From contig NZ_FNGS01000010.1 of assembly GCF_900103285.1 (NCBI RefSeq), forward strand, positions 1 to 64,000: DNA of 64,000 nucleotides. The letters run 5' to 3'. The position numbers were made by a program, and so were the translations under genes. The notes below the pieces were generated by a model. That model searched no databases. It had not been told where the DNA came from and was given only the letters and a program-made list of their open reading frames with translations. Numbering within the stretch: the first letter of the stretch is position 1; the number at the start of each line of letters is the position of its first letter. This stretch comes from Siphonobacter aquaeclarae. Lineage in GTDB: Bacteria; Bacteroidota; Bacteroidia; Cytophagales; Spirosomataceae. This document shows positions 16,709 through 17,929 of the stretch, piece by piece.

Positions 16709-16996
16709 ATGCAGGTAGACAAAGACACCCTACAGAAGATCGCACAGCTCGCCCGCCTCGAAATTCAGCCGGGCGAAGAGGAATCGCTGAAAGCTACTCT
16801 CAGCAGCGTGCTGACATGGATGGAGCAACTCAACGAACTCGATACATCGGGCATCGAACCCCTAACGCACATGAGCGTGGAGGTGAATGCGTTCCGCCCG
16901 GACGTCGCGAAACAGACGCTGACTACTGAGCAGGGACTCCTCAACGCCCCCAAACGGGATGAGCAGTTTTTCCGGGTACCCAAAGTGCTGGAGTAG
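16709..16996 (+). CDS. gatC: Asp-tRNA(Asn)/Glu-tRNA(Gln) amidotransferase subunit C
   Basis: A 95-aa GatC, the small subunit that wraps around GatA in the amidotransferase making Gln-tRNA(Gln) or Asn-tRNA(Asn). Typical features: IAQLARLEIQPGEEESL at the N-terminus, LTWMEQLNELDTSGIEPL in the middle, and a C-terminal FFRVPKVLE. gatA and gatB are not adjacent. A strong terminator follows. Confidence 0.95.
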   Translation: MQVDKDTLQKIAQLARLEIQPGEEESLKATLSSVLTWMEQLNELDTSGIEPLTHMSVEVNAFRPDVAKQTLTTEQGLLNAPKRDEQFFRVPKVLE

Positions 16997-17017
16997 GTTC
17001 AATGAAAAGAATAGCCA

Positions 17018-17046
17018 GGCCGGTCGACTAACGACCGGCCTTTTTT
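17018..17046 (+). terminator. Terminator after gatC
   Basis: A perfect 9-bp stem GGCCGGTCG / CGACCGGCC, five-base loop, then TTTTTT. Confidence 0.9.
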
Positions 17047-17054
17047 ATTGCCCC

Positions 17055-17468
17055 TGTGGATAGTGGGGAAAAGAGTTATCCACATTCTGATTATTTCTGT
17101 GGATAATCACTTGTGAAAAATGGGGATGTCGGTATAAGTAGTTCACCTACAGGTACTTTATCTCAAAGTCGTCGGCATCCAGGTAGGCTGGAAAACCTTC
17201 CCGGAATGTGGATAAGTCTTCCTTGCTGAGGGAAACGGTGTGGACAAAAGCCGATTCCTGTGGAGAAGTAAGCCAGTTCCCCCGAAAATCGATTACGCCG
17301 GAAGATCCCTCGTGGAAAACCCCGTTTCCGTCGTTTCCGACACGGTTCACTCCGACGACATAGCTCTGATTTTCAATTGCCCGCGCCGTCAGCAGGCTCC
17401 GCCAGGCATAGTCCCGGGCGGCCGGCCAGTTGGCCACATACAGCAGAAGGTCGTATTCGTTATCCACA
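17055..17468. other. oriC: DnaA-box cluster, candidate replication origin
   Basis: Exact TTATCCACA boxes lie at 17076-17084 (+), 17098-17106 (-), 17207-17215 (-) and 17460-17468 (+). One-mismatch boxes lie at 17055-17063 (CTATCCACA, -), 17239-17247 (TTGTCCACA, -) and 17259-17267 (TTCTCCACA, -). The first three are in the 100-base spacer between the gatC terminator and the omega-amidase stop; the rest lie inside that gene. The spacer is AT-richer than its surroundings. Bacteroidota origins are often not next to dnaA, so this is a candidate oriC; a DnaA-titration or regulatory site is the alternative. Confidence 0.55.
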
Positions 17469-17929
17469 TTGCGGCTCCAGACCGGAAAACGCAGGTCGTA
17501 ACAGATCAGCGGACGGACCGTCCACCCGCGCCACGTACGCTGTACTTTCCGGGTACCGGCGGCGTAGACCTCGTGCTCGCCGCCCATCCGGAACAAATGA
17601 CGTTTGTCGTAATAATCGAATGAACCGTCCGGTTCCATCCAAAGCAGCCGGTTGACGTAGGAGGAGCCGTCCCGCACGATGAAACTACCGGTGACCGCGG
17701 CATCATACCGTGCGGCAATTTGCTGCATCCAGCGCGTAGTAGTCAGGTTCATTGGCTCGGCAACGGGCGCCGGGTTCATCGTAAAACCCGTCGTAAACAT
17801 CTCCGGCAGGACAATCAGATCGGTACCCGCTGTGATCGTCTCGAGGGTTTCTTCGAGCATGGACCGGTTGGCGATGGGGTTTTCCCAGTGCAACGGCGTT
17901 TGTACAAGCGTGACGCGGAGAGCATTCAT
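17147..17929 (-). CDS. Nitrilase-superfamily amidase (omega-amidase, YafV/Nit2-like)
   Basis: A 260-aa carbon-nitrogen hydrolase with an intact Glu-Lys-Cys triad: E in IVLPEMFTTGF (about 42), K in YYDKRHLF (about 116) and C in LICYDLRFPVW (about 150). The length and these segments fit omega-amidases, which hydrolyse alpha-ketoglutaramate or related amides. Cytoplasmic. Unusually, its coding sequence contains several DnaA boxes; one is spelled by codons Leu-Ser-Thr using TTA, a leucine codon that appears little used in neighbouring genes. A TACCTTCG element (near -7 consensus, 17949-17956 on -) lies 20 bases upstream. Confidence 0.88.
   Translation of the reverse strand: MNALRVTLVQTPLHWENPIANRSMLEETLETITAGTDLIVLPEMFTTGFTMNPAPVAEPMNLTTTRWMQQIAARYDAAVTGSFIVRDGSSYVNRLLWMEPDGSFDYYDKRHLFRMGGEHEVYAAGTRKVQRTWRGWTVRPLICYDLRFPVWSRNVDNEYDLLLYVANWPAARDYAWRSLLTARAIENQSYVVGVNRVGNDGNGVFHEGSSGVIDFRGNWLTSPQESAFVHTVSLSKEDLSTFREGFPAYLDADDFEIKYL

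Follow-up and report, generated by a model that had tools for sequence, protein, structure and literature searches.

Genes and DnaA boxes at the locus

The window analyzed here is a 64-kb stretch that forms the beginning of contig C19 (236 kb) of Siphonobacter aquaeclarae, the host, whose genome of 6.19 Mb is assembled in 19 contigs. Near 17 kb, gatC and an omega-amidase gene converge on a 150-bp spacer, and a group of DnaA boxes begins in this spacer and continues into the amidase coding sequence. The gene identities given in the initial annotation agreed with Pfam matches (PF02686 and PF00795), and the gatC terminator was recovered by a terminator scan. The motif scan of the whole window returned the four exact TTATCCACA boxes and the three one-mismatch boxes at the positions originally described, in both orientations and within 414 bp. 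The features of the locus are as follows.

16709 to 16996, plus strand: gatC (Glu-tRNA(Gln) amidotransferase subunit C); Pfam PF02686, ORF
17017 to 17041, plus strand: intrinsic terminator of gatC, 10-pair stem and T tail; terminator scan, folding
17055 to 17063, minus strand: DnaA box with one mismatch (CTATCCACA), spacer; motif scan
17076 to 17084, plus strand: exact DnaA box, spacer, convergent with the 17098 box across a 13-bp gap; motif scan
17098 to 17106, minus strand: exact DnaA box, spacer; motif scan
17112 to 17120, minus strand: further box, TTTTTCACA, spacer, fits TTWTNCACA; consensus scan
17147 to 17929, minus strand: omega-amidase-like carbon-nitrogen hydrolase, convergent with gatC, four boxes in its 3' half; Pfam PF00795, ORF
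17207 to 17215, minus strand: exact DnaA box, amidase coding sequence (Leu-TTA Ser-TCC Thr-ACA); perfect in five of the six genus genomes, G002 having one mismatch
17239 to 17247, minus strand: DnaA box, amidase coding sequence, one mismatch in the host (TTGTCCACA); exact in the 5 other genus genomes
17259 to 17267, minus strand: DnaA box, amidase coding sequence, one mismatch in the host (TTCTCCACA); exact in the 5 other genus genomes
17460 to 17468, plus strand: exact DnaA box, amidase coding sequence (Asn-Val-Asp-Asn); exact in all six genus genomes

Of the seven boxes, the spacer holds three and the amidase coding sequence four, and outside the cluster the window held no perfect box, both as first noted. 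The additional box at 17112 was found with the wider E. coli consensus. Matches with at most one mismatch numbered 17 in the window against 9.4 expected, and 17 was reached in 2 of 100 shuffles, showing that the clustering rather than the window total is the striking feature. The host genome contained 76 perfect boxes compared with 27 copies of the reversed-motif control; a Poisson estimate from these 76 boxes gave approximately 1.4e-6 expected occurrences of four exact boxes within 393 bp. A single group in the host was denser, with five perfect boxes upstream of thrC (C18:280,054-280,338). When groups were ranked by perfect boxes in the five genomes with genome-wide box listings, the amidase group came first in G001, G003 and G005 and second in the host, and in G002 it was tied (three). 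In 45 long ORFs of the window, 41 of 1967 leucine codons (2.1%) were TTA, the codon that lies within the 17207 box and was earlier described as seemingly rare.

The GGRDH motif of DnaA domain IV reads the DnaA box. Domain IV of the host DnaA could be aligned with the solved domains of E. coli and B. subtilis over approximately 80 residues, this motif included, and its box-reading domain thus appears normal-looking. For the rrn operon that the initial annotation placed at the start of the window, the sign was by eye: about the first 40 positions resemble the closing part of a 5S rRNA gene, and Rfam returned no match for so short a piece.

Position of the replication origin

The initial annotation had proposed that the cluster is the replication origin, at which DnaA would assemble on the boxes and open the spacer. 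Several boxes within a few hundred base pairs, dense and in both orientations, are what an oriC would have. Further, dnaA was located at C11:146,513 (L255) and the likely oriC described below lies on another contig, so that dnaA need not mark the origin in the host. However, skew, synteny and composition all rejected the window cluster as oriC, and we now consider this reading hardly credible.

The cumulative GC-skew minimum of C18:1-320,000 fell at 64,703, inside a box-bearing spacer (C18:64,201-64,741; L087:4201-4741) upstream of a TPR-repeat gene whose host orthologue occupies C18:64,742-66,562. The 20-kb pieces of C18 before 60 kb had skews of -0.038, -0.035 and -0.017. Beyond 60 kb, 26 of the 31 pieces up to the contig end were positive (560-769 kb sampled in part), the others being -0.000 (160 kb), -0.001 (260 kb), -0.014 (340 kb), -0.007 (360 kb) and -0.018 (700 kb). 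On the contig of the window, the cumulative skew climbed from about 1 kb to 164 kb and two later samples were positive; the GC-skew check suggested for the window therefore gave a rise with no switch at 17 kb. A terminus-type site was likewise rejected, since C19:1-164,000 contained no plus-to-minus switch. Skew was negative in 14 of 15 samples of C7 and positive in 7 of 7 samples of C14, all from the first 420 of its 969 kb. The remaining contigs were sampled over at most their first 20 kb, so the whole-genome skew curve is incomplete.

The C18 spacer carried two perfect boxes, further near-boxes and an AT-rich end, with counterparts recognized by eye in G001 and G003. Its AT-richest 60 bp reached 77% AT; the best 60 bp within approximately 300 bp of the window cluster reached 67%, and no AT-rich unwinding element was found there.

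The same arrangement was observed across the family. In G009, a relative assembled as one contig, the 20-kb samples were positive in 6 of 6 cases at 0.2-2.7 Mb and negative in 8 of 8 at 3.2-6.5 Mb. The skew was still negative at 6.61 Mb and positive at 6.70 Mb (a piece at 6.9 Mb, -0.014, ran against the trend), and at this switch lay a box cluster (6,622,261-6,624,333) adjoining the TPR-repeat gene and thrC. In G030, also one contig, the densest box cluster was directly upstream of the same TPR gene. This gene was present in 45 of 49 genomes, host included. When 30 loci were fetched, 27 had full flanks, and 26 of these, including the host and five sister genomes, had at least three boxes (at most one mismatch) in the 800 bp upstream of the gene, compared with 0.15-0.33 in shuffles; the sole exception, G039, had none. 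Two perfect boxes 20 bp apart were matched in 56 of 222 family genomes, and 19 of the first 20 fetched loci (three genera) lay at the TPR gene. In the five sister genomes this tandem pattern occurred in the amidase (5 of 5) and in two other places; the host is without the 20-bp tandem perfect pair because two of its boxes carry one mismatch. By contrast, no exact box was found in the amidase coding sequence of 24 loci from outside the genus, although gatC adjoins the amidase in several of them, so that the related genera had no syntenic box-bearing counterpart of the window cluster.

The spacer C18:64,201-64,741 is the likely oriC of the host. It shares its box sequence with the window cluster but differs in lying at the skew minimum, in its AT-rich end and in its presence throughout the family, none of which holds for the cluster. 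Our literature search found no paper on a Siphonobacter replication origin, and no title on a Cytophagales origin was among the matches listed. The placement of oriC upstream of the TPR gene should help to annotate genomes of this family, whose origin is not necessarily marked by dnaA. In an order-level relative (L036; G056:C1:3,016,995), seven perfect boxes within less than 500 bp lay in what looks like a canonical AT-rich origin.

Conservation of the boxes in Siphonobacter

Of 39 genomes, host included, 36 had the amidase, and 30 loci were read. Boxes were present inside its coding sequence in all six genus genomes (2-5 perfect boxes each), in which the sister proteins were only 68-71% identical to that of the host. 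The boxes occupied homologous positions at columns 464, 665, 685 and 717 of the codon alignment; the box at column 464 was perfect in 6 of 6 genomes and those at columns 665, 685 and 717 in 5 of 6 each. G001 and G004 alone shared a fifth box (column 388). Among the 24 non-genus loci, L073 and L084 had one perfect box elsewhere in the locus, and L077 had no box in the whole amidase locus. Two named Siphonobacter loci (69% and 71% identity), whose boxes are spaced as in the sister genomes, were the only ones with at least two perfect boxes in the fetched DNA of the best 80 of 574 relatives. From these matches the genus of the six genomes is taken to be Siphonobacter. The 222-genome family set includes six genus genomes, and all six were analyzed.

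The expectation in the initial annotation that close relatives would share the boxes was thus correct at the DNA level for the six genus genomes; the 24 amidase genes beyond them had no exact box. The suggested comparison of gatC-amidase synteny did not favor an origin, as the two genes remain neighbors in several other genera and have no boxes there, indicating that the boxes are probably younger than the neighborhood. In the host, two boxes of the coding sequence are at one mismatch and perfect in the five sisters, and the spacer boxes are absent from those sisters. This pattern resembles a turnover of individual sites while the cluster itself persists.

Selection on synonymous sites

Shuffling of synonymous codons yielded a mean of 0.02-0.29 perfect boxes per amidase gene, and the observed 2-5 boxes were reached in 0 of 1000 shuffles in each of the six genomes. 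At codons with an identical residue in all six genomes, 8 of 9 synonymous sites within shared boxes were invariant compared with 26 of 138 outside (Fisher P 3e-5). With one genome per lineage, the proportions were 9 of 9 and 44 of 142 (P 5e-5). The synonymous-site test is biased upward because its boxes were picked as common to at least four genomes; the codon-shuffle test is free of this bias. Within the genus, the same nine bases were also produced from differing residues, namely Ser-Tyr-Pro-His or Ser-Tyr-Pro-Gln at one box and Leu-Ile-His-Thr or Phe-Ile-His-Ser at another. As far as these codon comparisons reach, the cluster is under selection at the DNA rather than the protein level.

It might be argued that the coding boxes are a by-product of protein conservation and codon habits and that the spacer pair is a mere terminator hairpin. 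The 17460 box encodes a conserved Asn-Val-Asp-Asn (NVDN), the convergent spacer pair can be folded (-16.8 kcal/mol, z -2.5), and convergent pairs lie between genes in five family loci. However, protein and codon habits never reached the observed box count in the shuffles, the 17207 box uses the rare leucine codon, and identical nine-base boxes arise from Tyr-Pro-His and Tyr-Pro-Gln and from Leu-Ile-His and Phe-Ile-His. The scan did not call the spacer pair a terminator, although a loop of 13 bases would have escaped it, since it allows at most 8. We regard this by-product explanation as quite improbable.

A search for convergent pairs gave matches in 19 of 59 genomes, host included; the gatC-amidase site was not reached outside the host in these 59 genomes. 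At L050-L054 (five of six inspected loci), convergent TTATCCACA pairs 6-7 bases apart lay between genes and could form hairpins, as if DnaA boxes doubled as terminator stems; the sixth inspected locus, in G056, is the canonical-looking origin mentioned above.

Other loci with DnaA boxes

Four sister genomes carried a one-sided array of perfect boxes on the TPR-gene side of oriC, at the following positions.

G002:C29:48.9-71.0 kb, 23 perfect boxes
G003:C8:78.5-99.8 kb, 22 perfect boxes
G005:C49:62.7-84.0 kb, 23 perfect boxes
G001:C8:63.8-87.5 kb, 15 perfect boxes

The first three arrays covered 21-22 kb, with many matching spacings, and the array of G001 covered 24 kb. No perfect box was found in the corresponding 25 kb beside the oriC of the host. 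The 80-kb stretch around oriC was compared with 200 synonymous shuffles of mechanically called ORFs in G003, G001 and the host. Coding sequences held 25 perfect boxes in G003 (2.2 in shuffles, maximum 6) and 12 in G001 (1.5, maximum 5); the two boxes of the host did not differ significantly from its shuffles (0.6, maximum 3). Boxes with at most one mismatch were nevertheless raised around the host oriC, with 9-11 per 20 kb at 20-80 kb compared with 1-4 for the reversed motif.

The 1.5-kb region upstream of thrC contained 2-5 perfect boxes in 6 of 6 genus genomes, and two of the five in the host cluster (L001/L002) abut. This cluster first looked like the best oriC, as the TPR-gene origin of G008, G009 and G030 has thrC next to it. 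It was rejected as oriC, since the skew minimum and the TPR gene of the host are approximately 215 kb away on the same contig. Because thrC adjoins oriC in other genera and lies this far off here, the cluster may be a displaced piece of the old origin neighborhood. Two further candidates for thrC-upstream sites (G001:C1:354292 and G003:C2:414003) were discarded, as by eye they lie downstream of purH.

One more gene had 2-3 perfect boxes in its coding sequence in three genus genomes (host C18:31,406-31,978, L085; G003:C8:45,590-46,171; G001:C8:30,541-31,137). By eye we take this gene and its counterparts to be 5-formyltetrahydrofolate cyclo-ligase.

Proposed role in DnaA titration

We favor, with some reservation, the reading that the window site is not oriC and is instead an ectopic, coding-embedded DnaA-titrating cluster with 7-8 boxes of the high-affinity type in approximately 410 bp. 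This had been the fallback of the initial annotation, and the conservation of the boxes at the DNA level in close relatives appears to support it indirectly. The cluster would act as a sink for DnaA and may help to limit the timing of replication start. DnaA would occupy the boxes of the cluster before the weaker boxes of oriC; passage of the fork would then double the sink sites, free DnaA would drop and re-initiation would be delayed. Titration models, as set out in the available portions of two papers (PMC5835720, PMC12371093), need a sink that is filled ahead of a weak-box origin. The window cluster has four perfect boxes compared with 0-2 in the 800-bp oriC region of the genus (4-10 with at most one mismatch), and a strong cluster set against a weak-box oriC gives the order of strength that titration requires. 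This order is not general, because other genera hold up to seven perfect boxes upstream of the TPR gene.

Several observations weigh against this reading. With four of the 76 perfect boxes of the genome, one cluster may have a small effect, and sink capacity would not be constant in the genus since the host is without the ori-side perfect-box array of four sisters. The amidase lies 160 kb from the TPR-gene origin in G009, 173 kb in G008, 294 kb in G040, 764 kb in G030 and 1.28 Mb in G006, so its position relative to the origin varies among these five relatives. A site inside rplB of B. subtilis was bound by DnaA in vitro and was undetectable in vivo, perhaps due to transcription, according to an excerpt of PMC4447404.

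Control of amidase or gatC transcription by DnaA through the boxes seems very unlikely. DnaA is described as a transcription factor in part of PMC8203912, and three weak promoter-like matches lie across the spacer boxes. However, the two convergent genes have their 3' ends at the cluster, a position that speaks against promoter control; the coding boxes lie approximately 460-720 bases into the amidase gene; and the three promoter-like matches, compared with 0.9 (sd 1.0) in shuffles, are partly formed by the boxes themselves.

The site could also be an equivalent of datA or DARS, that is, a nucleoprotein site that alters the nucleotide state of DnaA (ATP hydrolysis or exchange) with a DNA-bending protein and is not a passive sink. 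The E. coli datA locus resembles the cluster as a single locus away from oriC that holds roughly five or six DnaA boxes, part of them perfect (passages of PMC5835720 and PMC5295017). Box number and density are similar, datA having two consensus boxes and four with one misfit in the sections of PMC5835720 at hand, and the 13-bp gap of the convergent pair and the 201-bp step between two conserved coding boxes would give a bending protein room. In contrast, datA is reported as non-coding (PMC4585315, in part) and works by IHF-dependent hydrolysis of DnaA-ATP, whereas four boxes of the window cluster are coding; the spacer boxes of the host are also not common to the five sisters. We therefore hold a datA- or DARS-like function to be unlikely.

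The titrating cluster that we favor is comparable to the DnaA-box clusters (DBCs) of B. subtilis, being likewise a cluster of high-affinity-type boxes outside oriC. The DBCs are thought to keep DnaA from oriC, and loss of all six leads to early initiation, a strong effect being seen only then; elsewhere the same review assigns the clusters no significant role (all from the consulted sections of PMC5295017). Unlike the DBCs, the boxes of the window are kept at homologous codons of a protein gene across a genus of another phylum.

More speculatively, Siphonobacter may write its DnaA sink into protein-coding genes, with the amidase used in six genomes and the ori-side array in four sisters. Titration rather than nucleotide switching would then be a main brake on initiation, with positions that turn over while the sink persists; we find this broader view possible and somewhat doubtful. 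DnaA titration by chromosomal boxes is an old idea, for which direct evidence comes from E. coli and B. subtilis in the sources as far as available. Selection on silent codon positions would add evolutionary evidence, from another phylum, that boxes outside the origin matter. Boxes in a coding sequence can moreover be recoded silently with the protein unaltered, which offers a clean test of titration.

The sister arrays can be compared with the origin-proximal box enrichment of E. coli, where the chromosomal excess of boxes is argued to be selected and to serve titration (PMC12371093, in part). In E. coli the boxes are counted with looser motifs and the excess extends over centisomes, whereas the sister arrays comprise 15-23 perfect boxes within 21-24 kb on one side of oriC. 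The window cluster differs further in being a site separate from the ori-side array.
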